A DNA stretch of 64,000 nucleotides from assembly GCF_027595985.1 (NCBI RefSeq), contig NC_073308.1:11864566-11928565 (forward strand), in the 5' to 3' direction. A model generated the notes under the pieces. The model did not search any database. It had not been told where the DNA came from and worked only from the letters and a program-made list of their open reading frames with translations. Positions 25,847 through 60,571 of this stretch are shown one piece after another; the first letter of the stretch is position 1; each line of letters starts with the position of its first letter. The translations under genes and the position numbers were made by a program. The stretch comes from Sorex araneus. Lineage: Eukaryota; Chordata; Mammalia; Eulipotyphla; Soricidae.

Positions 25847-26785
25847 TTGGTGACCAATTGCTGTTTATTCCATTCTCCTTATGCGCCCCATTCCAGTCTC
25901 ACACTGCCTCTCATTCCCATCTCCTCCTGTCCCCCATGCCAGTCTCTCCACACACACTCCTGCAGCCTCTTCTAGAGCCCAACTTTCCAGCATTCAGGGT
26001 AGCAAGGACACCTAGGTTAGGTAGCACAATCAACATCTGCAAGCCCTTCCTTCTGGGGAAGTTCTTCTAAGACAAAGATGTCCTCCTGCTAGGAGATCAG
26101 CTCAAGGGCTTTGTTTTTATCTAAGGACACACTTCTCCTTTGCTTAGTCCACAAACAATCATCTTAGATCTACTTACTTCTTAATAATCGTTCTAGTCAT
26201 TTTGTATGGACACAGTAAGAGATATATTAATCTTACAGGGTGACTCTGCTGGAGACATCTCGCTATAGATCCAAGACTGCATATCTCAAGCCAGATGAGT
26301 CCTTCCTAACCCTAGCAGCGTCCTTTTCCAGTCATTTCTCTTTCGGCCATGACAGAATTCATCCACGACCGTTCTCTTGAGTTATAGTTAAGTATTATGG
26401 AGCTTGGCCTGTCCTGTTTCCGTGCCAGGGTAGCTCACAGCTTGCCCTAGGTCCAGCCAGTCCTTTCATCCGGACCCTGTTTCTGAGATGCTAGGAACGA
26501 AGGGAAACTGAGTCTTAAGTCGAGTTATATATATGACAGACATCCAGGAGTAAATATTATTTGGAATCAATTAACTCCCAAGTTACAAAAGCATAGCATT
26601 AACTGTCTTCCTATGTTTATACAAAAAGGACATTTCTAGGAAATAAACTATGCAAAGGACATAAGGGAAGAAGAAAAGCAATATTTCACTTAAAATACAA
26701 AATCCAGAGTCGTTAGAAGGATCTGACCTTACAAGTCACAGGTCTGATTTTCGTATATAGATGATTGGGGAAGAGAGCACAGAGA
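25847..26785 (-). mobile_element. ~0.94-kb non-L1 insert, LTR-like, inverted (shared with 51576-52525)
   Basis: It interrupts L1 ORF2 and is present in both copies. The minus strand ends 'aataaacagcaattggtcac' plus CA, i.e. a polyadenylation signal about 15 nt from a CA terminus, as in an LTR 3' end. The plus-strand start TGGTGACC is the mirrored terminus. The other terminus is not clear. No coding capacity. Family unknown. Confidence 0.45.
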
Positions 26786-27285
26786 AGTTAAAGATAAACA
26801 TAGAGGAATGGGAGTGCCTCAGGAGCACTGTGATGGATGTAACCCAATAAACCTAAGCTCCCTACAGCCAGGGAGAAAGGACTAACCAATGTTATCCTAC
26901 ATTCAGGCACCACCACCATGCTCCCCAAAACTGAGGATATATTTTTCTCTAGTGCACCTGGAATGTTCTCCAGGATAGATAACATATTAGGGAATAACTA
27001 ATATATATAAATTTACAAATATAGAAATCATGCAAAGTATTGTCTCAGACCACAATAACATAAAGTAGAAATTGATTATAAAAAAATGGGAAAACGTCAA
27101 ACTTTTGGAAGCTGAACAAGTCACTGCTAAATAGCAGCTGGATCGAAGAGGAAATCAAGAAAGAAATAAAAATATTTCTTGAAATGAATGAGAATGAATG
27201 TACAAGATACCAAAATATATGGAATACAGTGAAAACTTTACAAAAGGGGAAATTCAGAGTAATGCAGGCCTACATTAAGAAAGAA

Positions 27286-27472
27286 TGGGGCTGGAGCAAT
27301 AGCACAGGTATTGTAGGTAGGGCGCTTGTCGTGCACATGGCCAACCCGGGTTTGACTCCCAGCATCCCATATGGTCTCCTGAGCATGCCTTGGGTAATTC
27401 CTGGTGTCAGAGCCAGGAGTAACCCCTGTGCATCGCCAGGTGTGACCCAAAAAGCAAAAAGGAAGAAAGAAA

Positions 27473-27522
<50 letters not shown>

Positions 27523-27525
27523 AGA
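27286..27525 (+). mobile_element. SINE, A-tail class, with expanded (GAAA)n tail, copy A only
   Basis: Head 'ggggctggagcaatagcaca', end 'cgccaggtgtgacccaaaaa', then about 70 bp of GAAA repeats. At the equivalent site in B2 (about 53,020) the L1 sequence runs uninterrupted ('attaagaaagaagaaagca'), so insertion followed duplication. The target repeat resembles aagaaagaa. Confidence 0.93.
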
Positions 27526-28030
27526 AAGCACCCAAATAGATAATTTGAGCATATATCTCAAAAATCTATAGAGTGAACAACAAACACAAGATATAATAGA
27601 CTGAGGGAAATAATAAAAACTAGAACAGAAATTAATAATATAGAAACAAAAAAAGAGAATAAACGAAACAAGAATTGGTTCTTTAAGAGAGCAAACAAGA
27701 TAGACAAACCCTTATACTCATAAGGGAGAGAAAGGAAATGTCCAGATGAATTGAATCAGAGATGAAAGAGGAAAACTCCTCAAATATTCAAGATATTATG
27801 AAAGGTTACTACAAACAACTTTGTGATATTTAGCTGGAGAACATAAAGAAATGAACAGATCCTTAGAATCATCTAATCTCCCATGAGGCAAAAGTAGAAA
27901 ACTGAACAAGCTAATCACAAATAAGGAAATTGAAACAGCGATTAAGACTTTCCAAGAATGAAAGTCCCAGTCAGGATGGGCTGGCTGGTGAGTTTTATCA
28001 AACCTTCAGAGAAAACTTTCTGCATTTACT

Positions 28031-28214
28031 TTTTTTTTTTTTTTTTTTTTTGCTTTTTGGGTCACACCCAGCGATGCTCAGGGGTTACTCCTGGCTTTGC
28101 ACTCAGGAATTACTCCTGGCAGTGCTTGGGGGACCATATGGGATGCCGGGGATCGAACCCGGGTCGGCCGCGTGCAAGGCAGACGCCCTACCCGCTGTGC
28201 TATCGCTCCGGCCC
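28031..28214 (-). mobile_element. Young SINE, A-tail class, copy A only, perfect TSD
   Basis: Near-consensus inverted copy with a 23-nt T-run, intact 'ggggatcgaacccgggtcgg' B-box region and head end 'tatcgctccggcccc'. It is flanked by a perfect 11-bp direct repeat ctgcatttact (28020-28030 and 28215-28225). The site is empty in B2 (about 54,487). Confidence 0.96.
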
Positions 28215-28614
28215 CTGCATTTACTTTGTAAGCTCTTCCAATATATTGAAGAATCAGAAGTGCTTTCTAAAAGCTTCCACTAACCCAACATCGCATTAAT
28301 AACCAAAGTAGATAGAGACACATCCAGAAAAGATAATTAAGACCAATCACCCTGACGAACATCAATGCAAAAATCCTCAACAAAACCATAGCAAACTGAA
28401 TCCAACTGCACATCAAAAAATCATATAGAATTATCAAGTGGGATTCATCCAAGATGGTTCAATATATGCAAATCAATTAACATAATATACCACATCAGTA
28501 AAAGGTAAGGCAAAAATTATATGAACATAGCAAATGATGCTAAAATAGCCTTGACAAGATCCAATTTGAATGAATGATAACAATTCTCAATAAAATAGAA
28601 GTGGAAAGAAACTC

Positions 28615-29722
28615 TGTTGCGTAAAGCGATATATCAGTCGGGAGGAGGCACAGAGGCAAGACATGTGAGAGGAATGTAGAGAGCACGGAGGGACAAGGCA
28701 TCGATCTGGTTCGAGGTGACGAGTGACTACCAGAGGTCTCCCTTTCTTCTATTTTTTATCAGCTACATCCGAATGACCTCATCACAGTGAAAGAATCACT
28801 AGAGAGAGTACAAACAGTTATAGGATAAGCATACGTCAAAAGAAAGTCAGCATATACATTGTCCTGTCAAAGCTATGCTGTCAAAGCTATTTTACAATGA
28901 TTTAAAACATCAGAGGAAGATGTGGAACGGGACACATAGGCTCTACAGATTACGTCCTCCACATTCTTGTGGTCGGTTACACATAGGGCAAAGAGAAGGC
29001 CCAGACTGATACTTGAAGGTCACACCAGATTAAGGATGTGTAAGAGAGGGGGAAACTGCTGCTTTGTACTGCCAAGATAAGGTATGACCGGGCGGGTATA
29101 TGAGAGCATGCTGTACTCTTCCAGGTCATCGGACTCATAAGCTTAGCTTGCCCGCTTAACTCAAAGTGGGGCCTGGTTCTACTTCCTGCTTGCAGGGCAA
29201 TGTCCAGAGGCTCTTCCTAATGTCCTGGCATAGCACCAACAAACCTCCCTCAAGAGAGTAATGGCTATCTATAACTAACCTACAAACAGTATTGCTGCAG
29301 AAATTCCCACCAGAAACCTGTGGAGAAACAATCTGTACTGAGAAGTAGGAAAACGTGCCAGCAGATCCGGTGAGCTTGTGCTCCAGAACTGGCTCCAGTC
29401 CAAAGGCAAAAGCTTCGTTTGATAGCCTATCTGATGGAGGTTGGGGCATTTGCAGGCACCTGGCAGGAGAGGACAGAAGTAGAAATTCCAAAGTGTGTTA
29501 TTTTGCAAAGCTGGGTCTGGATAACGTCAAGGACCTGAGCACATTTGACAGGTGACCAAGGTGACAAAGCGAGACTCAAACCATCTTATGAACATCCCAA
29601 ATACACCCCATGGCTCTATGGCACAGCCCAGACTCAGTGGTTCCTTGGCAGGTCCTGCTCTTTGGGGTTAACCTCCTTGAAGTGAGACTGTTTGAAATAC
29701 AGGCAGGGGGTTCTTCTCATCA
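28615..29722 (-). mobile_element. ~1.1-kb LTR-like insert, inverted (shared with 54869-55970)
   Basis: Starts TGTTGCG and ends TTCTCATCA on the plus strand, i.e. TG...CA mirrored termini, replacing L1 sequence between the 'LDKIQFE' block and the '[11 protein letters not shown]' block. The minus strand near its end has an A-rich signal followed by a pyrimidine-rich U5-like stretch ending ACGCAACA. No ORF of note. Present in both copies, so older than the duplication. Confidence 0.5.
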
Positions 29723-29730
29723 GTATCACT

Positions 29731-29908
29731 CTTTTGTTTTGTTTTTGTGTGTGTGGGGGGGCATATCCAATGAGGCTCAGAGTTTTCTATTGACTCTGCA
29801 AACAGGAATTACTCTTTGCGAGACTTGTAAGACTATACAGGATACCGGGGATCAAGCCTGGGTTGGCATCATGCAAGGCAAGTCCTATCTCTCTGGTCCA
29901 CATCTCCA
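29731..29908 (-). mobile_element. Old SINE, A-tail class, inverted
   Basis: Eroded tail ('gcatatccaatgaggctcag'), 'caggaattactctttgcgag', 'ggggatcaagcctgggttgg', head end 'tctctctggtccacat'. Flanks share 'cagtatcactctt' and 'cagtatcattctt'. The same copy is in B2 at about 55,980-56,158. Confidence 0.7.
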
Positions 29909-30385
29909 GTATCATTCTTAATGGTGAAGAACTGAAAGAATTCCCACTGAGATCAGCTACAAGGCAAGGATGTTCACTGTCTCAGTTTTCATTCAGTATA
30001 GTATTAGAAGTTCTAGCAACAACAATCAGGCAAGGTAAGTAAATCAAAGATATTCAAATTTTAAAATAACAAAGATATTCAAATTGAAAATGAATTCAAA
30101 TGATCATTATTTTCTAATGGAATAATAATATACATAGAAGACCCTAAAGAACTCACCAAAAACCTTCTAGAAACAATAAAGCAACACAGCAAGTGGCTAA
30201 CGATAATGATAACGATAAAGCACAGAAACACATAAACATAGACACAAAAATTGGTTGTGTTTCTATATGCAAAAATTGAATCAGGGAAGAAAGAGATTTA
30301 AAATAGTGTCCAAAACATTACGTACCAGGAATGGACTTAACGAAGGAGGTGGGAGATCTATATAACAAAATATATAGGGACTCAG
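29909..30385 (+). pseudogene. L1 ORF2 remnant, reverse transcriptase palm region
   Basis: '[22 protein letters not shown]', then '[16 protein letters not shown]', corresponds to the L1 RT block N-G--L--F-L--GTRQGCPLSPLLF. The catalytic [FY]ADD region that should follow is destroyed by frameshifts and stops. Confidence 0.8.
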
Positions 30386-30825
30386 GGGCTCAGTTGCTGA
30401 GAGCCGCCTCTCCAGACTAGACGGTGGCAAGAGACGGACTAAGGACCTGGGGAACGGAGAAACAGGGCCCCAGCCTGTTGGGAGTCAGTTTATTTCTCTC
30501 CCTCCCCAGCGTAGTTCGATCTCTCCCCTCACTACACAATCGTAGTCGTGGTCGTAGTCCCAGGCATCTGTTTTTAATTAAAAGTTCCCTCTTCCTAGTC
30601 CTCGTCTTGTCTTTCTAGTCATCGTTGTTACCTCGTCCCCTCACCCCCCCTTACAGCACAGTTACAGAGACACCATGAAGGGTGGGGTACTCATGGGTGG
30701 GGTTGAGTGTTGTTAGAACAACAAACAGAGGTAAAGCCACCCCTTCAGGGGAAGTTCTAGGAGTTTCAAGGTACAAAAGTCTCATCTGATGGTTCTCCAG
30801 ATGACTAGGAGATCTGCTCAGGGTT
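30386..30825 (-). mobile_element. Non-L1 insert, possible LTR piece (shared with B2 at about 56,645-57,068)
   Basis: Separates plus-strand L1 from minus-strand L1 in both copies. The minus strand has AATAAA (in 'gagaaataaactgactccca') followed by a GC-rich stretch. The plus strand has a second polyadenylation-like 'taattaaaagttccctcttc' followed by T/C-rich DNA. Orientation and family are uncertain. Confidence 0.35.
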
Positions 30826-31688
30826 GTTTGCAGACCATATGGGAGTTCAATTCCTAGTTTTCTGAGGAATGTTCCATTGTCTTCCAAAAAGGCTGGAGCA
30901 GTGGTCATTCCCAGCAGTGAAAGAGAGTCCTTCTTTCCCTCTGCCATGCTGGCACAGGAGGTTGTGTTCTTAGTGATGAGTGTGACTTTGTGGTGTGAGG
31001 CGATATCTCATTGCTTTGATTTGCATTTTTCTAATGCTTTGTGAAGTTTATTTTTCAGATGATTTTTTTGCCATTTATATATTTTCTTTGAGGAATTTTC
31101 TGTTCATCTCTTCTCGCCATTTTTTGATTGGGTTGGATTTTTTTCCCTTGTATACTTCTACCTGGTGACTGGAGCGATAGCACAGTGGGTAGGGCGTTTG
31201 CTTTGCACGCGGCCGACCCAGGTTTGATTCCTCTGTCCCTCTCCGGAGCCCTGCAAGCTACCTAGAGTATCCTGCCTGCACAGCAGAGCCTGGCAAGCTT
31301 CCCATGCGCATTCTATATGCCAAAAACAGTAACAAGTCTCACAACAGAGACGCTACTGGACGACAGCGCTATAGTGCTACAGTTCTACCAGTGCTTTGGC
31401 TCTCTTGGATATTAGCTCTTTATTAGATGCATATAAGCAAATAATTTCTCTCAGTTTGTGGGCTGTCTTTATATTCTGATTATTATTTTCTTTGAGGGGC
31501 AGAAGCTTCTTTATTTAATGTTGTCCCATTTGTTTGTCTTTGCTTCCACTTACTTGGTTAGTGGTGTTTCACCCTTAGAGATGCCTTTAGCTTCAATGTC
31601 TTGGAGAGTTATGTCTACATTTTTCTCTTCATTGTTTTTAATTAAAAATTTTGAGGGCCTGCGTTCTCTGGTCTGTGTTGTCCCCTGA
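30826..31688 (-). mobile_element. Old L1 fragment, inverted (ORF2 C-terminal to mid region)
   Basis: The minus strand carries L1 ORF2 C-terminal blocks (about 30,840-31,030 and onward), better preserved in the paralogue at 57,069-57,368 (RYRLTPQ..., FRKLGIELPYD, FIAALFNRTEI). Copy A has a ~112-bp deletion at 30,827 compared with B. Lies tail-to-tail with the plus-strand L1. Confidence 0.8.
31166..31382 (+). mobile_element. SINE, RTE-tailed class (shared with 57522-57728)
   Basis: 'gactggagcgatagcacagt' head, 'gcagagcctggcaagcttcc', 'atatgccaaaaacagtaaca', shortened tail. Flanked by 'ttctacc' repeats. Confidence 0.88.
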
Positions 31689-31913
31689 ATTGCACTGCAC
31701 TGCACTGTCGTCCCATTGTTCATCAATTTGCTCCAGTGGGATCCAGTAACATCTCTATGTAAGATTTGTTGTTACTGTTTTTTTGCATATCCAATAAACC
31801 ATGGGTAGCTTGCCAGGCAAAAGCACAGTGGGTATGACGTTTGCCTTGCACGAAGCTGACCTGGGTTGCGTGCAAGGCAAACGTCCTACTCGCTGTGCTT
31901 TTGCTCCAGTCCT
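31689..31913 (-). mobile_element. SINE, RTE-tailed class, with inverted-head rearrangement in copy A
   Basis: Tail at the left ('tcgtcccattgttcatcaat', 'gttactgtttttttgcatat'), head end at the right ('gctgtgcttttgctccagtc'). In A the middle is replaced by a second, inverted head, which generates the hairpin at 31817-31904. The paralogue at 58,041-58,292 has the ordinary arrangement. Confidence 0.85.
31817..31904. repeat. 36-bp near-perfect inverted repeat (hairpin), 16-bp loop
   Basis: Arms 31817-31852 and 31869-31904 are reverse complements at 33 of 36 positions by eye. Both arms are the SINE head segment 'gacgtttgccttgcacg' in opposite orientations. Confidence 0.9.
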
Positions 31914-32152
31914 CTCCCCTGGACACATATCTTTATTGCTTGCCTCTATGTCTCTTTCTTTGCTTGTTTAATTGCTCTCCAAGTCTGTGTTCTCCCTTAA
32001 ACATGGACCCCACTTGCTTATCTCTGAGTCTCTTTGCTTGGGCTTCTTTCCTCTCTGGAGAAGACTGTGTTCTCTCTTTAACACATGTTTCCTCTTTCTC
32101 CCTCCTTACATCTTTCTAAGTACGTTTTGTTCAATAAAAACTATCTTTCTTT

Positions 32153-32300
32153 GGGGGTCAGGTGATAGTACAGCAGGTAGGGTACACATGGCCAACACAG
32201 GTTTGATTCCCCAGCTTCCCGTATGAGCCCCAAAGCCAGCCAGGAGGGACCCCTGAGTGTTGTTGTCACTCAAAACCAAAACAAAACAAGACAAACAAAA
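32153..32300 (+). mobile_element. SINE, A-tail class, old (shared with 58534-58680)
   Basis: 'gggtcaggtgatagtacagc', 'ggtttgattccccagcttcc', then 'aaaccaaaacaaaacaag'. Confidence 0.75.
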
Positions 32301-32675
32301 AAACTTCCTGCTTCACTGGAAAAAGTATTTTTTGTACATGTAATTTTGTTTTATTCTACTTATTTTAAGTTTTATTTAGTTTAAATAATATGGTTATAAT
32401 GGTGTTTAAGCTTATAGTATTTATAAACAAAGTTACTATGTGCTACCACTTCCAAAATGCCCTTGAACTTCCACCTCTGTCCTTTGTTATGTCAGGGAAG
32501 AATAATATAACCATAATAGCAATGTTTCTAAAACAGCCAACATCTATCAATTAGCCTCTTCCTCCTCATCTTATATAAGTATATAAGCATATACCTGTAA
32601 GTATTCTGCTACCTGCTTCATCAAACTATAAGCTGTTCATTAGAGAAAAATCACTACTAAAAAAATTTCAACATT

Positions 32676-32826
32676 GGGGCTGGAGGGATAGCACAGTGGG
32701 GAGGGCACTGCCTTGCACACAGCCAACCTGGGTTCATTTCCCAGCATCCCATATGGTTCCCTGAGCAATGCCAGGAGGAATTCCTGAGTGCAGAGCCAGG
32801 AGTAACCCCTGAGCATCGCTGGGTGT
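32676..32826 (+). mobile_element. SINE, A-tail class, shared by A and B2, tail converted to purine repeat in A
   Basis: Head 'ggggctggagggatagcaca' to 'gagcatcgctgggtgta'. In B2 (59,254-59,420) the tail is (AATA)n and is followed by the target repeat 'aaatttcaacatt'. In A the tail is a giant (GAAA)/(GGAA) tract instead. Confidence 0.93.
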
Positions 32827-32830
32827 ACGA

Positions 32831-32906
<76 letters not shown>

Positions 32907-33079: not shown

Positions 33080-33417
33080 TGTGGAGAGCCTCCACAGGAC
33101 CGTGCTTCGTGGACACCTGTTTCTTGTTAATTGCACCGTGCTTCGTAGACAACACCTGATAAGGAAACAGGATGTCTCGTCATGCCCACGAGCTGTAACT
33201 AGTCTATCAGCTGCAGACACTTGGGCGTAAACAAGCAGTGAGAGGTATATAAGGGGGGAAGCTGCCTAGCTAGTTGGTTCCCCCTCGTTCTCCCCCCTTT
33301 CTCCTTCTCTTTCCCATTCCCCTTCTTCCCTAATGCATGAGAAGTTCCCTGAATAAATTGCTGCAAGAAGAATCTCCGGGTTCCGTGTTTCTTCGCTGGT
33401 TGAAGCGGCACGCGACA
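33080..33417 (+). mobile_element. Solo LTR (338 bp) inside purine repeats
   Basis: Starts TGTGGAGAGCC and ends CGCGACA. It contains a TATA box (gtatataagg, about 33,245), an AATAAA at 33352-33357, then the R/U5-like 'ttgctgcaagaagaatctcc' and 'gggttccgtg'. The segment 'gcatgagaagttccctgaat' to 'agaatctccgggtt' is nearly identical to the LTR end of the mini-provirus at 53658-54392. The target repeat cannot be judged because flanks are GGAA repeats. Confidence 0.85.
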
Positions 33418-36683: not shown

Positions 36684-36745
36684 GTTTTTGTTTTGTTTTG
36701 TTTTTTGGTTTTTGGGTCACACCGGCAATGCACAGGGGTTACTCC
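36684..36745 (-). mobile_element. SINE tail end running into the assembly gap
   Basis: 'ttttggtttttgggtcacac' and 'gcacaggggttactcc' are the tail half of an inverted A-tail-class SINE. The rest is masked by Ns. Confidence 0.85.
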
Positions 36746-36945
36746 NNNNNNNNNNNNNNNNNNNNNNNNNNNNNNNNNNNNNNNNNNNNNNNNNNNNNNN
36801 NNNNNNNNNNNNNNNNNNNNNNNNNNNNNNNNNNNNNNNNNNNNNNNNNNNNNNNNNNNNNNNNNNNNNNNNNNNNNNNNNNNNNNNNNNNNNNNNNNNN
36901 NNNNNNNNNNNNNNNNNNNNNNNNNNNNNNNNNNNNNNNNNNNNN
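36746..36945. other. Assembly gap, exactly 200 Ns
   Basis: Unresolved bases. The size is probably nominal. It hides the 5' portion of the young L1 and the head of the SINE. Frames drawn across it have no meaning. Confidence 1.
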
Positions 36946-51575: not shown

Positions 51576-52525
51576 TTGGTGACCAGTTGCTGTTTATTCC
51601 AGTCTCCCCATGCACCCCGTTCCAGTCTCAAACTGACCCTCATTCCCTCATTCCTATCTCCTCCTGTCCCCTGTACCAGTCTCTCCACACACACTCCTGC
51701 AGCCTCTTCTAGAGCCCAACTTTCCAGCATTCAGGGTAGCAAGGACACCTAAGTGAGGTAGCACAATCAACATCTGAAAGCCCTTCCTTCTGGGGAAGCT
51801 CTTCTAAGACAAAGATGTCCTCCTGCTAGGAGATCAGCCCAAGGGCTTTTTTTTTAATCTAAGGACATATTTGTCCTTTTCTTAGTCCACAAACAATCAT
51901 CTTAGATCTACTTACTTCTTAATAATCTTTCTAGTCATTTTGTATGGACACAGTAAGAGATATATTAATCTTATAGGGTGACTCTGCTGGGGACATCTTG
52001 CTATAGATCCCAGACTGCATTTCTCAAGCTAGATGAGCCCTTCCTAACCCTAGCAGGGTCCTTGTCCAGTCATTTCTCTTTGGGCCATGACAGAATTCAC
52101 CCACAACCGTGCTCTTGAGTTATAGTTAAGTATTATGGAGCTTGGCCTGTCCTGTTTCGTGCCAGGGTAGCTCACAGCTTGCCGTAGGTCCAGCCAGTCC
52201 TTTCGTAAGGACCCTGTTTCTGGGATGCTAGGAACTAAAGGGAAACTGAGTCTTAAGTCGAGTTATATATATGACAGACATCCAGGAGTAAATATTATTT
52301 GGAATCAATTAACTCCCAAGTTACAAAAGCATAGCATTAACTGTCTTCCTATGTTTATACAAAAAGGACATTGCTAGGAAGTAAACTGTGCAAAAGACAT
52401 AAGGGAAGAAGAAAAGCAATATTTCACATAAAATACAAAATCCAGAGTCGTTAGAAGGATCTGACCTTACAAGTCACAGGGTCTGATTTAGGGATATAGG
52501 TGATTGGGGAGGAGAGCACAGAGAA
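51576..52525 (-). mobile_element. LTR-like insert, paralogue of 25847-26785
   Basis: Matches A base-for-base over most of its length ('tcgagttatatatatgacag', 'catccaggagtaaatattat'). The minus-strand end 'aataaacagcaactggtcac' carries the polyadenylation-like signal. Confidence 0.5.
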
Positions 52526-53651
52526 GTTAAAGATAAACATAGAGGAATGGGAGTGCCTCAGGAGCACTGTGATGGGTGTAACCCAATAAACTTAAGCTCC
52601 CTGCAGCCAGGGAAAAAGGACTAACCAATGTTATCCTACATTCAGACACCTCCACCAACCTCCCCAAAACTGAGGATATAATTTTCTCTAGTGCATGTGG
52701 AATTTCTCCAGGATAGATAACATATTAGGGCATAACTCAATATATATAAATTTACAAATATAGAAATCATGCAAAGTATTCTCTCAGACCACAATGACAT
52801 GAAAGTAGAAAATGATTATAAAAAAGGGGAAAACTTCAAACTTTTGGAAGCTGGACAAGTCACTGTTAAATAGCACTTGGATCAAGGAGCAAATCAAGGA
52901 AGAAATAAAAATATTTCTTGAAACTAATGAGAATGAAGGTACAAGATACCAAAATATATGAAATACAATGAAAACTGTACTAAGGGGGAAATTCAGCGTA
53001 ATGCAGGCCTACATTAAGAAAGAAGAAAGCACCCAAATAGATGATTTAAGCACATATCTCAAAAATCTGTAGAGGAAACAACAAATAAACATAAGATATA
53101 ATAGACTGAAGGAAGTAATAAAAATTAGAACAGAAATTAATGTTATAGAAAAAAAAGAGAATAAATCAAACCAGAAGTTGGTTCTTTCTTCAAAAGAATA
53201 AACAAGGGGGCTGGAGTGATAACACAGCAGGTAGGGCATTTGCCTTGCGTGCGGCCGACCCGGGTTCGATTTCCAGTATCCCATATGGTCACCTGAGCAC
53301 CGCCAGGAGTAATTCCTGAGTGCAGAGCCAGGAGTAACCCCTGTGCATTGCCAGGTGTGACCCAAAAAGCAAAAAAACAAAAACAAACAAACAAAAAACA
53401 AATAGTAAACAGGATAGACAAACCCTTAGACTCATAAGGATAAGAAAGAAAATGTCCAGATGAATTGAATCAGAGATGAAAGATGAAACATTACAACATA
53501 CTCCTCAAATATTCAAGATATTATGAAAGGTTACTACAAACAACTTTGTGATGTTAAGCTTGAGAACGTAGAAGAAATGAACAGATCCTTAGAAACATCT
53601 AATCTCCCATGAGGAGAAAGTAGAAAACTGAACAAGCTAATCACAAATAAG
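52526..53651 (+). pseudogene. L1 ORF2 remnant, endonuclease region (copy B2)
   Basis: Paralogue of 26,786-27,910, with 'gaaaactaatgagaatgaag' (ETNENE) and the YQNI block near 52,940. Frameshifted throughout. Interrupted by the private SINE at 53207-53400. Confidence 0.78.
53207..53400 (+). mobile_element. Young SINE, A-tail class, copy B2 only
   Basis: Near-consensus 'gggctggagtgataacacag', 'gacccgggttcgatttccag', 'ccaggtgtgacccaaaaagc', A-rich tail with CAAA units. The equivalent site in A (about 27,690) is uninterrupted. Confidence 0.95.
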
Positions 53652-53657
53652 GAAACT

Positions 53658-53948
53658 TGTAAGAAATCACACAACCCGGAGATTCTTCTGGCAGCGATTT
53701 ATTCAGAGAACTTCTCATGCAAAACGGGAATAAAGAGGGACGAGGGACGAATGAGGAGGAACCCCCTTGCAGGTTTCCCGAATTGGGGTTACCCACTGCA
53801 TCAAAATTAAAGCGACAATCTCTGGCCCAGTGATTTCCCCTCTTACACCAGGGACAGGGCCCGGGAGGTCCAAGTCTGGCTCTGCAGTCTCTGATTTCCC
53901 CTCTTCAATCCGGCTCGAGAAAATATAAAAGATTTTGAAAAGCCCAGA
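53658..53948 (-). repeat. 3' LTR of the mini-provirus
   Basis: 291 bp. The minus strand ends 'ctgaataaatcgctgccaga' to 'gtgatttcttaca', i.e. polyadenylation signal, R/U5, CA. The minus-strand start has 'tcttttatattttctcgag', a TATA-like element. Confidence 0.88.
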
Positions 53949-54080
53949 ATCTGCCCCATTTTATTGGGGGATTGCTGTTTGGATTCTAATCCGCAGCACA
54001 CAAAAAAATCCTGATCTCCCGCTCACTTTCTAGAGTGGGGTGCACCAAACACTTATTCTTACCTTTATTTGATAGTTCGG

Positions 54081-54098
54081 GCCCACCCCGGGACGCCA
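54081..54098 (-). promoter_or_regulatory. tRNA-Asn-type primer-binding site
   Basis: Plus-strand gcccaccccgggacgcca equals the acceptor end of vertebrate tRNA-Asn (gcccacccagggacg plus CCA) with one mismatch. Adjacent gttcgg extends the match into the T-arm. Confidence 0.82.
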
Positions 54099-54100
54099 GC

Positions 54101-54392
54101 TGTAAGAAATCACACAACCCGGAGATTCTTCTGGCAGCGATTTATTCAGAGAACTTCTCATGCAAAACGGGAATAAAGAGGGACGAGGGACGAATGAGGA
54201 GGAACCCCCTTGCAGGTTTCCCGAATTGGGGTTACCCACTGCATCAAAATTAAAGCGACAATCTCTGGCCCAGTGATTTCCCCTCTTACACCAGGGACAG
54301 GGCCCGGGAGGTCCAAGTCTGGCTCTGCAGTCTCTGATTTCCCCTCTTCAATCCGGCTCGAGAAAATATAAAAGATTTTGAAAAGGCCCAGA
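54101..54392 (-). repeat. 5' LTR of the mini-provirus
   Basis: 292 bp, one G longer than its partner. Two bases (TC in the element's sense) lie between the target repeat and the TG, and the same TC precedes TG next to the purine run at the 3' LTR. Confidence 0.88.
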
Positions 54393-54398
54393 GAAACT

Positions 54399-54868
54399 GA
54401 AATAGTGATTAAGACCATCCAAGAATGAAATTCCCCATCAGAATTGGCTGGCTGGTGAGTTTTATCAAACCTTCAGAGAAAACTTACTGCATTTACTTTT
54501 TCAACTCTTCCAATATGTTGAAGAAGCTTCTAACTCAGCTAACATTGCATTAATACCCAAAGTAGAAAGAGACACATCCAGAAATGAAAATTTAGACCAA
54601 TCTCCCTGATGAACATCAATGCAAAAATCCTCAACAAAACCTTAGCAAACTGAATCCAACTGCACATCAAAAAATCATATATAATTATCAAGTGGAATTC
54701 ATCCAAGATGGTTCAATATATGCAAATCAATTAACATACTATTCCACATCAGTAAAAGGCAAGGCAAACATCATATAAATATAGCAAAAGATGCTAAAAT
54801 AGACTTGACAAGTTTCAATTTGAATTAATGATAACAATTCTCAATAAAATAGAAGTGGAAAGAACCTC
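54399..54868 (+). pseudogene. L1 ORF2 remnant, RT N-terminal region (copy B2)
   Basis: Paralogue of 27,930-28,614 without A's SINE. The 'ttcatccaagatggttcaat' (FIQDGSI) block is near 54,706. Confidence 0.78.
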
Positions 54869-55970
54869 TGTTGCGTGAAGCTATATATCAGTCGGTCAGA
54901 AGCGCAGAGGCAAGACACGCGAAAGAAATGTAGAGAGCAAGGAGGGACAAGGCATCAATCTGGCTCGAGGCGAAGAGCGACTTCTAGAGGCCTCCCTTTC
55001 TTCTATTTTTTATCAGTTACGTCTGAATGACCTCATCACAGTGAGAGAACCACTAACGAGAGTACAGTTATAGGATAAGCATTCGTCAAAAGAACATCAG
55101 GGTATACATCGTCCTGTCAAAGCTAAAGCTATGCTGTCAAAGCTATGTTGCAATGATTTAAAATGTCAGAGGAAGATATGGAACTGGACACATAGGCTCT
55201 ACAGATTACGTCCCCCACATTCTTGTGGTCGGTTACACATAGGGCAAAGAGAAGGCCCAGACTGATACTTGAAGGTCACAACAGATTAAGGATGTGTAAG
55301 CAGGGGGAAACTGCTGCTTTGTACTGCCAAGATGAGGTATGTCCAGGCGGGCCTATGAGAGCATGCTGTACTCCTCCAGGTCATCGGACTCACAAGCTTA
55401 GCTTGCCCACTTAATTTAAAGTGGGGCCTCGGTTCTGCTTCCTGCTTGCAGGGCAGCGTCCTAATGTCCTGGCTTAGCACCAACAAACCTCCCTCAAGAG
55501 AGTAATGGCTATCTATAACTAACCTACAAACAGTATTGCTGCAGAAATTCCCACCAGAAACCTGTGGAGAAACAAACAATCTGTACTGAGAAGTAGGAAA
55601 ACGTGCCAGCAGATCCGGTGAGCTTGTGCTCCAGAACTGGCTCCAGTCCAAAGGCAAAAGCTTCGTTTGATAGCCTATCTGATGGAGGTTGGGGCATTTG
55701 CAGGCACCTGGCAGGAGAGGACAGAAGTAGAAATTCCAAAGTGTGTTATTTTGCAAAGCTGGGTCTGGATAACGTCAAGGACCTGAGCACATTTGACAGG
55801 TGACCAAGGTGACAAAGCGAGACTCAAACCATCTTATGAACATCCCAAATACACCCCATGGCTCTATGGAACAGCCCAGACTCAGTGGTTCCTTGGCAGG
55901 TCCTGCTCTTTGGGGTTAACCTCCTTGAACTGAGACTGTTTGAAATACAGGCAGGGGGTTCTTCTCATCA
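54869..55970 (-). mobile_element. LTR-like insert, paralogue of 28615-29722
   Basis: TGTTGCGTGAAGC to TTCTTCTCATCA. Same order of blocks as in A, with a ~19-bp deletion near 55,455 compared with A. Confidence 0.5.
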
Positions 55971-56158
55971 GTATCACTCTTTTGTTTTGTTTTGGTGTGT
56001 GTGTGTGTGGGGAATCATACCCATGAGGCTCACAATTTTCTATTGACTCTGCAAACAGAAATTACTCCTGGCAAGACTTTTTAAGACTATACAGCATACC
56101 GAGGATCAAGCCTGGGTTGGCATCATGCAAGGCAAGTCCTATCTCTCTGGTCCACATC

Positions 56159-57068
56159 ACCAGTATCATTCTTAATGGTGAAGAACTGAAAGAATTCCCA
56201 CTGAAATCAGGTACAAGGCAAGGATGTTCACTGTCTCGTTTTTCATTCAGTATAGTATTAGAAGTTCTAGCAACAGCAATCAGGCAAGGTAAGTAAATCA
56301 AAGATATTCAAATTAAAATAAAACAAAGATATTCAAATTGAAAAGGAAGTCAAATGATCACTATTTTCAGGTGGCATAATAATATACATAGAAGACCCTA
56401 AATAATTCACCAAAAACCTCCTAGAAACAATAAAGCAACACAGCAATTTGACTAGCGATAAAGTTAGCCACATAAACACAAAGCACAGAAACACATAAAC
56501 ATAGACAAAAAATTGGTTGTGTTTCTATATGCAAAAAAGAATCATAGAAGAAAGAGATTTAAAATAGTGTCCCAAAACATTAAATACCAGGAATGGACTT
56601 AATGAAGGACGTGGGAGATCTATATAACAAAATACATAGGGACTGGGGGCTCAGTGGCTGAGAGCCGCCTCTCCAGACCAGATGGTGGCAACAGACGGAC
56701 AAAGGACCTGGGGAACGGAGAAACAGGGCCCCAGACTGTTGGGAGTCAGTTTATTTCTCTCTCCTCCCCAGCGTAGTTTGATCTCTCCCCTCACCGCACA
56801 ATTGTAGTCGTGGTCGTAGTCCCAGGCATCATAGTTCCCTCATCCTAGTCCTCGTCTTGTCTTTCTAGTCATCGTTGTTACCTCGTCCCCTCTCCCCCCC
56901 TTACAGCACAGTTACAGAGACACCATGAGGGGTGGGTACTCATGGGTGGGGTTGAGTGTTGTCAGAACAACAAACAGAGGTAAAGCCACCCCTTCAGGGG
57001 AAGGTCTAGGAGATGAACTCAAGGTACAACTCTCACATGAGGGTTCTCCAGATGACTAGGAGATCTGC
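56159..57068 (+). pseudogene. L1 ORF2 RT remnant and adjoining non-L1 insert (copy B2)
   Basis: 'tggtgaagaactgaaagaat' (NGEELKE) starts the L1 part. From about 56,645 the non-L1 insert ('gctgagagccgcctctccag') follows, as in A. Confidence 0.72.
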
Positions 57069-58030
57069 TCAGGGTTGTTTGCAGATTTCGGTTCTATTGA
57101 ATAGTGCTGCAATGAACATAGGAATGCTGATGCCCTTTCTGTTTGTGCTTTGGGGCCCTTGGGTATGTTTCCAAGAGTGGACTTGTTGATCGTATGGGAG
57201 TTCAATTCCTAGTTTTCTGAGGAATGTTCGATTGTCTTCCCAAAAGGCTGGAGCAGTGGACATTCCCCAGCAGTGAAAGAGAGTCCTTCTTTCCCTCTGC
57301 CCATGCCAGCACAGGAGGTTGTGTTCTCCGTGATGAGTGTGACTTTGTGGTGTGAGGCGATATCTCATTGCTTTGATTTGCAGTTTTCTAATGCCTTGTG
57401 AAGTTTATTTTTCATATGAGTTTTTTGCCATTTATTTTTACTTTGAGGAATTTTCTGTTCATCTTTTCTTGCCATTTTTTGATGGGGTTGTATTTTTTTT
57501 TCCTTGTACAGTTCTACCTGGGGACTGGAGTGATAGCACAGCAGGTAGGGCATTTGCCTTGCATGTGGCCAACCCGGGTTCAATTCCTCCGTCCCTCTTG
57601 GAGAGTCCGGCAAGCTACCGAGAGTATCCCATTGTGAGATGAGTATCTCCATCTCACAATGGAGATGTTACTGGTGCATGATCGAGCAAATTGATGAACA
57701 ACTGGATGACAGTGCTACAGTGGTACAGTTTTGCCAGTGCTTTGGCTCTCTTGGATATAAGCTCTTTATTAGTTTCAGGTAAGCAAATAATTTCTCTCAG
57801 TTTTTGGACTGTCTTTATATTCTGATCATTATTTTCTTTGAGGTGCAGAAGCTTCTTAATTTAATGTAGTCCCATTTGTTTGCCTTTGCTTCCACTTACT
57901 TGGTTAGTGGTATTTCACCCTTAGAGATGCCTTTAGCTTCAATGTCTTGGAGACAATGAATTATGTCTACATTTTTCTCTTTATTTTTTTTAATTAAAAT
58001 GTTGAGGGCCTGTGTTCTCTGGTCTGTGTT
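57069..58030 (-). mobile_element. Old L1 fragment, inverted (copy B2, better preserved)
   Basis: A 99-codon minus frame (57,069-57,368) reads RYRLTPQ, then TAPAFWEDNRTFLRKLGIELP and FIAALFNRTEICKQP, the L1 ORF2 C-terminus in order. A second minus frame (57,365-57,652) continues toward the KKWQK/NKLHKALENCK region. Confidence 0.85.
57522..57728 (+). mobile_element. SINE, RTE-tailed class (orthologue of 31166-31382)
   Basis: 'gggactggagtgatagcaca', 'aacccgggttcaattcctcc', tail 'gagatgttactggtgcatga'. The middle is partly deleted. Confidence 0.88.
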
Positions 58031-58040
58031 CTCCCCTGAG

Positions 58041-58292
58041 CTACACTGCACTGCATTGTCGTCCCGTTGTTCATCGATTTGCTTGAGTAGGCACCAGTAA
58101 TGTCTCCATTGTGAGACTTCTTGTTACTGTTTTTGGCATATCGAATATGCCACGGGTAGATTGCCAGGCTCTGCCATTAAGGCGGGAAACTCTCCATAGC
58201 TTGCTGAATTCTCTGAGAGGGATGGATGAATTGAAAGCAGGTCGGCTGCGTGCAAGGCAAACGTCCTACCCGCTGTGCTTTTGCTCCAGTCC
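58041..58292 (-). mobile_element. SINE, RTE-tailed class (orthologue of 31689-31913, normal arrangement)
   Basis: 'gcattgtcgtcccgttgttc', 'ggcaccagtaatgtctccat', 'tttttggcatatcgaatatg', head 'gcgtgcaaggcaaacgtcct'. Confidence 0.9.
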
Positions 58293-58533
58293 TCTCCCCT
58301 GGACACATATCTTTATTGCTTGCCTCTATGTCTCTTTCTTTGCTTGCTTAATTGCTCTCCAAGCCTGTGTTCTCCCTTAACCATGGATCCCACTTGCTTA
58401 TCTCTGAGTCTCTTTGCTTGGGCTTCTTTCCTCTCTGGAGAAGACTGTGTTCTCTCTTTAACACATGTTTCTTCTTTCTCCCTCCTTACATCTTTCTAAG
58501 TAAGTTTTGTTCAATAAAAACTATCTTTCTTTG

Positions 58534-58680
58534 GGGGTCAGGTGATAGTACAGCAAGTGGGGTGCACATGGCCAACACAGGTTTGATTCCCCAGCTTCCC
58601 GTATGGGCCCCCAAGCCAGACAGGAGGGAACCCTGAGTGCTGTTGTCACTCAAAACCAAAACAAAACAAGACAAACAAAA
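58534..58680 (+). mobile_element. SINE, A-tail class, old (orthologue of 32153-32300)
   Basis: Same blocks as in copy A ('gggtcaggtgatagtacagc'). Confidence 0.75.
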
Positions 58681-58711
58681 AACTTTCTGCTTCACTGAAA
58701 AAGTATTTTGT

Positions 58712-58905
58712 GCATATCCGTGTTCGATTCTTCCGCTCCTCTGGCAAGCTACCGAGAATATTGAGCCTGCACGGCAGAGCCTGGCAAGCTACCTATGGTG
58801 TATTCAATATGCCAAAAACAGTAACAATGAGTCTCACGATGAGAGATGTTACTTTTGCCCACTCGAACATATCGGTGAGCTACGGGATGACTGTGACAGT
58901 GACAG
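58712..58905 (+). mobile_element. SINE, RTE-tailed class, 5'-truncated, copy B2 only
   Basis: Starts in the B-box region ('ccgtgttcgattcttccgct') and ends 'gatgactgtgacagtgacag'. At the same place in A ('aagtattttttgtacatg', about 32,320) the flank is uninterrupted. Confidence 0.9.
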
Positions 58906-59253
58906 TAATTTTATTTTATTCTACTTATTTTAGGTTTTATTTAGTTTAAATAGTATGGTTGTAATGGTGTTTAAGCTCATAGTATTTATAAACAAAGTTA
59001 CTATGTGCTACCACCTCCAAAACGCCCTTGACCTTCCACCTCTGTCCTTTTGTTATGTCAGGAAAGAATAATATAACCGTAATATCAATGTTTCTAAAAC
59101 AGCCAACTTCTCTCTACTAGCCTCCTCCTCATCATCATCATCTTATATAAGTATATAAGCATATAACTACCTGTAAGTATTCTGCTACCTTCTTCATCAA
59201 ACTGTAAGCTGTTCATTAGAGAAAAATCACTATTAAAAAAAATTCAACATTGG

Positions 59254-59450
59254 GGCTGGATCGATAGCACAGTGGGTAGGGCATTTGCCTTGCACGGGGT
59301 TGACCCGGATTCAATTCCCAGCATCCCATATGGTCCCCTGAGCACCACAAGGAGTGATTCCTGAATGCATGAGCCAGGAGTAACCCTTGTGCATCGCCAG
59401 GTGTGACCCAAAAAGCAATGAATAAATAAATAAATAAATAAATAAAATAA
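59254..59450 (+). mobile_element. SINE, A-tail class, with (AATA)n tail (orthologue of 32676-32826)
   Basis: 'ggggctggatcgatagcaca' to 'ggtgtgacccaaaaagcaat', (AATA)n, then the target repeat 'aaatttcaacatt' also seen upstream. Confidence 0.94.
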
Positions 59451-60192: not shown

Positions 60193-60344
60193 ATGATATG
60201 TGCTGGTCTTCTATGAGATGTTGTATTGCTGGTTTAATTTGCATTTACCTAATGATAAGGGGTACAGTATATTTTTTATATACCTGTTGGACATCTGCAT
60301 GCCTTCTTTGAAGAAGTATTTGTAAATGACTCCACCCCATATTT

Positions 60345-60511
60345 TTTTTCTTTTTGGGTCACACCCAGCGATGCTCAGGGGTTACTCCTGGCTTTGCACT
60401 CAGGAATTGCTCCTGGCAGTGCTTGGGGGACCATATGGGATGCCGGGGATAGAACCCAGGTCGGCCGCGTGCAAGGCAAACGCCCTACCTGCTGTGCTAT
60501 CGCTCCAGCCC
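60345..60511 (-). mobile_element. Young SINE, A-tail class, with TSD
   Basis: 'ctttttgggtcacacccagc', 'ggggatagaacccaggtcgg', head end 'tatcgctccagccc'. Flanked by ccaccccatatttt / ccaccccatttttt (60332 and 60512). Confidence 0.94.
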
Positions 60512-60571
60512 CCACCCCATTTTTTGAAGTGGTTGATTATTTTCCTTCTTGTAAAGTTCTACCAGTGAGGA

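Follow-up and report, generated by a model that had tools for sequence, protein, structure and literature searches.

A short betaretrovirus-like provirus in Sorex araneus with gag fragments in the place of U3, probably formed by misdirected reverse transcription

The element and its insertion site

The window analysed here, a 64-kb stretch of Sorex araneus DNA, contains an insertion of 735 bp at positions 53658-54392 with GAAACT on either side. The element is oriented along the minus strand, on which AATAAA, TTACA and a primer binding site follow one another in this order; the copy of the target site duplication at its viral 3' end lies at 53652-53657, and that at its viral 5' end at 54393-54398. 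It is bounded by two direct repeats, a 3' copy of 291 bp (53658-53948, minus strand) and a 5' copy of 292 bp (54101-54392, minus strand), which are spaced by 152 bp and differ by no substitution and one indel. This sole difference is a single base at window positions 54385-54386, close to the outer end of the 5' repeat, and sets GGGCC against GGGC in the viral sense. With no substitution among 291 columns, the repeats have diverged by at most about 1% (95% upper bound), which would place the insertion roughly 1-2.5 million years ago or less, at usual mammalian rates and with gene conversion excluded by assumption.

A direct duplication (25847-32868 versus 51576-59446) provides the corresponding empty site. 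In the paralogous block of about 7 kb, which lies about 25 kb away and lacks the element, the site is uninterrupted and GAAATT occurs once, at 27926-27931, with flanks that can be aligned on both sides. Across about 4.4 kb the aligned pieces of the two blocks agree at 89-93%, and across the last 2 kb at 86-87%; given this likeness and the empty site, the insertion occurred later than the duplication of the blocks. An earlier reading made from the sequence alone (the sequence-only reading) had described a 6-bp target duplication with an empty paralogous site and, on these grounds, a recent and genuine integration; both descriptions hold. A duplication artefact of the assembly or at the DNA level is extremely unlikely: direct repeats 443 bp apart may be mis-assembled, and the window has an assembly gap of 200 N elsewhere (36745-36944), but there is a target duplication on both sides and a precise empty site, and one integration explains both junctions.

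The target is L1-like sequence, and the duplicate blocks are rich in such sequence. A retrocopy made by L1 was considered and rejected, the 6-bp duplication and the end of U5 in CA leading us to infer otherwise. Target duplications of 6 bp are typical of the betaretroviral integrase and of the betaretrovirus group as a whole, and the one found here, also 6 bp long, fits such an integrase. At the viral 5' end, TGGG is separated from the target duplication by an extra TC in the viral sense (window 54391-54392). These are possibly unprocessed terminal bases, and they fit a non-canonical att end without processing at the usual CA.

Several other features of the window were recorded. About 1.3 kb of unidentified sequence lies inside L1-like sequence from 54861 to about 56165 (limits set by eye); it has a counterpart in the other block and is therefore older than the duplication. 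One open frame in each block is without a Pfam match; at E 0.001 Pfam returned nothing for five open frames of the window apart from those of the element. Copies of a tRNA-Ala-like SINE are abundant (e.g. 53207-53391 and 60342-60513); they look like a SINE of shrews, for which the literature search gave no support, and the single tRNA-like match to Rfam at gathering scores, at 28139-28209, is one such copy.

A leader with a tRNA-Asn primer binding site

The 152-bp interior (53949-54100, minus strand) can be read from its sequence features as a complete 5' leader extending from the primer binding site to the start of gag. The primer binding site (54081-54098, minus strand) agrees with tRNA-Asn at 17 of 18 core positions and, over a 24-nt extended site that starts two bases after TTACA, at 22 of 24. 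Of the 23 tRNAs compared by their 3' ends, the next best, Lys-1,2 and Arg-TCT, agree at 12/18 positions, and no other site in the window, on either strand, matches the tRNA-Asn 18-mer at more than 14/18. The assignment to tRNA-Asn in the sequence-only reading is thereby corroborated. The splice-donor-like site that it listed is likewise present on the minus strand, as AAAG/GTAAGA at 54057-54066, judged against the donor consensus. An origin of the element from RNA spliced at this leader donor was rejected, as the GT is still present. Folding of the leader RNA is unremarkable (z -1.70; 12 of 200 shuffled sequences did equally well).

The sole ATG in the leader (53957-53959, minus strand; viral 434), flanked by A at -3 and G at +4, opens the frame MGQILGFSKSFIF..LKRG, a putative gag start beginning with MGQ. 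Among Markov sequences of the same make-up, 1130 of 100,000 have a start with MGQ and a purine at -3, and 24,621 of 100,000 one with M-G alone. The putative MA piece, of which about 20 residues are available, has no match in Pfam or the PDB, and the prokaryote library NCBIfam gave nothing with two pieces. We infer that the MGQ piece is the start of MA because of where it lies and because gag sequence comes after it.

The purine-rich run AATAAAATGGGGCAGAT (53949-53965, minus strand) covers this putative gag start and reaches up to the repeated unit at its 5' edge, which begins directly after it and keeps the MGQ frame. Of the purine tract described earlier, the purine-rich run itself is indeed there, but it overlaps the only ATG of the interior, in the MGQ frame, and would thus be part of the putative beginning of gag. 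It makes a poor PPT, and its position suggests that it might have served as a cryptic plus-strand primer.

Gag sequence in the position of U3

In each of the 291/292-bp repeats some 186 bp of betaretroviral gag precede R-U5 and are fused to it, and we therefore refer to the repeats as pseudo-LTRs. The gag-derived block of the 5' copy (54207-54392, minus strand) occupies the position of U3 and appears to join the putative start of MA to NC. Within it, viral nt 94-135 (54258-54299, minus strand) code for a CCHC zinc knuckle of the second NC knuckle type, C-x2-C-x4-H-x4-C, with ligands and frame intact; in the 3' copy the same knuckle lies at 53815-53856 on the minus strand, and the complete knuckle piece is unchanged between the two repeats. 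A 48-residue piece containing the knuckle matched zf-CCHC_5 (PF14787), described in Pfam as "GAG-polyprotein viral zinc-finger", with an E-value of 3.9e-12 and a score of 46.1 bits against a cut-off of 27. In the PDB the same NC piece recovered 8c9m, annotated as a Gag protein (1.4e-8), 1dsv (1e-7) and 1cl4 (3.2e-7), which are chains from HERV-K, MMTV and MPMV respectively. By this homology the repeats carry gag NC, and the earlier statement that the element has no coding capacity has to be withdrawn, each repeat having a betaretroviral nucleocapsid zinc knuckle.

The knuckle agrees with each of the three chains at 16 of 28 core residues, as against 18-21 of 28 for the chains among themselves, and differs at positions that all three have in common. 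It is possible that this drift preceded the insertion, as it would in an older non-autonomous, non-coding lineage.

No U3 was recognised in the repeats. The yardstick was a separate solo-LTR-like sequence in the window (33080-33417, plus strand), which has TG...CA ends, a TATA at 33246 and an AATAAA, and shares R-U5 homology with the element. Against the U3 of this one related LTR, the gag block scored 11.0, with a mean of 12.2 for letter shuffles, 360 of 500 of which reached the score; against the whole LTR it scored 12.0, with a shuffle mean of 12.7 and 303 of 500 reaching it. The sole TATA string of the repeat, at viral nt 23, lies about 160 nt upstream of R. Hence the repeats were rejected as ordinary LTRs, given their gag content (zf-CCHC_5 and the Gag/NC chains) and a U3 comparison no better than shuffles. 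What stands of the two LTRs of about 291 bp in the sequence-only reading is the pair of repeats with one indel and a spacing of 152 bp; their identity as U3-R-U5 does not, as gag lies upstream of R.

The same observations bear on a recombinational deletion, after integration, of an ordinary full-length provirus, which had been offered earlier as the simple alternative. Such deletion is a common proviral fate in general, but it fits this locus badly because a provirus that loses internal sequence keeps true U3-R-U5 ends, which would be expected beside the target duplication. Here neither end is an intact U3-R-U5; both outer repeats have gag for U3, with the same junction twice, and we regard this origin as highly improbable.

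A second way to account for gag in both repeats is a full-length ERV family with a composite LTR, in which U3 was replaced by gag long ago, the present copy having been internally deleted during reverse transcription. One unusual step would then be enough for this copy, and the drift of the knuckle would suit an LTR that no longer codes. In the 3' repeat, however, which follows without a break on the leader and the gag-like ATG, the gag block sits in its native place, as such a family does not predict; the intact knuckle ligands and frame also speak against it. On balance we consider this very unlikely.

The beginning of R

For R-U5 of the 5' repeat (54101-54206, minus strand) we place the start at GGTTCC (viral nt 187); AATAAA lies within it at 54146-54141, and its last bases are TTACA. 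Its identification comes from BLAST homology to the solo-LTR-like sequence at 33080-33417, with 90% identity over 61 bp that cover viral nt 229-289 only. In that LTR, which lies between GAAA/GGAA microsatellites and has another U5 end than the element, TATATAAG is found at 33246 and GGTTCC starts 30 nt further on, at 33276, where the 5' end of the RNA would be expected (TATA+30).

The GGTTCC of the element lies near the point where similarity to NC fades. This similarity extends to the end of the 48-residue query (viral nt 189), and a 96-residue query added 12 further residues with hardly an identity. The stretch from GGTTCC to the strong match scored 19.5 against the related LTR, with a letter-shuffle mean of 13.2 and 1 of 500 shuffles reaching the score. 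A strict alignment has viral nt 190 as its first position and sets it opposite 33302 instead of 33276, whereas a permissive one matches the two GGTTCC to each other and extends, with many gaps, as far as viral nt 116, within the gag block. The alignment upstream of nt 229 is therefore soft, and the transcription start is deduced from one pyrimidine-rich relative with a different U5 end, so that the first base of R may be displaced from GGTTCC; within these limits, gag NC is joined near the expected start of R. A boundary close to the end of the RNA and fused to gag would point to a strand-transfer event during cDNA synthesis.

A proposed origin by misdirected reverse transcription

We consider it probable that the element is a germline betaretrovirus-like provirus whose pseudo-LTRs arose by misdirected reverse transcription, most likely in a one-off accident, and which was then integrated and inherited. 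The process would have started with the packaging of an RNA with the order R-U5-PBS(Asn)-leader-gag. The minus-strand strong-stop DNA (R-U5) would then have landed in the NC part of gag instead of on the 3' R, for which the G-run CAAGGGGGTTCC might have provided microhomology. The minus strand would have been copied through the NC knuckle until a second jump skipped most of gag. AAGAGGGGAAATCA, which may bear on this second jump, is present at both viral 45 and viral 106; its first copy may belong to MA or to the first knuckle. Copying of the MA start and the leader up to the primer binding site would have followed. Plus-strand synthesis may have been primed by the purine-rich beginning of gag (AAAATGGGGCAGAT), used as a cryptic PPT, and a normal second transfer at the primer binding site would then have placed a gag fragment followed by R-U5 at both ends. 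Finally, the integrase of a helper would have joined the product to the L1-like target with a 6-bp duplication. The view in the sequence-only reading that the proteins of another provirus were needed to copy the element is supported.

This account calls for at least three unusual steps. No parent provirus turned up in the 64-kb window. Among viral contigs an exact pattern had 0 matches, and two pattern scans returned 46 and 45 stretches of which tblastn confirmed 0; a protein search likewise gave no candidate.

Comparison with known systems

The element is classed, by its sequence, as a derivative of a betaretrovirus-like ERV on the strength of two characters, a Gag NC with a CCHC knuckle and a 6-bp target duplication. 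Betaretroviruses and class II ERVs generally have a splice donor before gag and use tRNA-Lys as the usual primer. With MMTV, MPMV and HERV-K the element shares the NC zinc knuckle, the 6-bp duplication and the splice donor before gag; unlike them it has a tRNA-Asn primer site and no pol, env or recognised U3. In literature titles and the starts of abstracts, with few subscription journals covered, there was no tRNA-Asn-primed mammalian betaretrovirus and no germline pseudo-LTR provirus of this kind. In a study of foamy-like ERVs of fish and amphibians, the words tRNAAsn and PBS both occur (PMC5512871).

In size and layout the element resembles a TRIM, as which it had been described before. It has short terminal direct repeats, a primer binding site and a purine tract, holds no complete genes and falls within about 0.5-1 kb, features that are given for the TRIMs of plants and the ta-TRIM of taeniids, the latter being only the second animal TRIM family as of 2015 (PMC4558846). 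TRIMs are considered to be mobilised in trans (PMC4558846), and the present element would likewise have needed helper proteins. True LTRs with U3, R and U5 are however absent, gag lying upstream of R as far as comparison of U3 with one related LTR can tell. Furthermore, the interior ends at a likely gag start and not at a 3' UTR with a PPT, and the fusion of gag to R is found in both repeats, so that the earlier description as TRIM anatomy does not stand. In E. multilocularis, ta-TRIM numbers at least 142 full-length copies, and its transcripts begin within the LTR (PMC4558846). The element described here differs from ta-TRIM in having no recognised U3 and a gag fragment in its repeat.

Nevertheless, the unit of gag fragment, R and U5 might be a real LTR, many copies of which were moved by a helper as a TRIM-like family. 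The size of about 0.7 kb, the two repeats, the primer binding site and the purine tract match the TRIM description (PMC4558846), and the drift of the knuckle away from known betaretroviruses would be in keeping with such a history. Against this, the repeat is made of gag and R-U5 with no recognised U3, the only TATA string about 160 nt upstream of R leaves a transcript from R unexplained, and no further copy was found within the 64-kb window; we judge such a family unlikely. The bolder version, in which one strand-transfer accident gave rise to a working LTR of this composition and the genome now holds a replicating family of mammalian mini-elements, we judge to be quite unlikely.

The class of mechanism behind the preferred origin, errors of strand transfer, is known from retroviral vectors. 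Pulsinelli and Temin (1991, J Virol 65:4786) reportedly described proviruses with large deletions that arose through strand-transfer errors of a retrovirus vector in a single replication round. Those proviruses are alike in that an error in reverse transcription yielded an integrated deleted provirus; judging by its title, that study concerned a vector, whereas the copy described here is apparently germline and betaretrovirus-like, with gag for U3 at both ends.

Work on HIV provides background only and is no test of this element. One study gives an estimate of about 30% of strong-stop DNA failing the first transfer, with the number of 5' G residues being of importance (PMC4668388). HIV-1 proviruses with asymmetric LTRs, ascribed to template switching in reverse transcription, are similar in that the defects lie at the level of the LTR (PMC9278108). 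In the HIV-1 case a deletion affects the 3' LTR and the 5' LTR is left intact (PMC9278108), whereas the present element has matching pseudo-LTRs that both contain gag.

Implications

The element is a real and well-preserved oddity. If the proposed origin is correct, the element would be a legible record of a first strand transfer that went wrong but whose product was nonetheless integrated and retained in the germline, and it would imply that an integrable product can be made without a true U3 or a true PPT. Programs that search for LTRs, as well as human readers, may mistake such pseudo-LTR proviruses for TRIM elements, and coding sequence joined at R in other genomes would provide a gauge of how frequent such accidents are.
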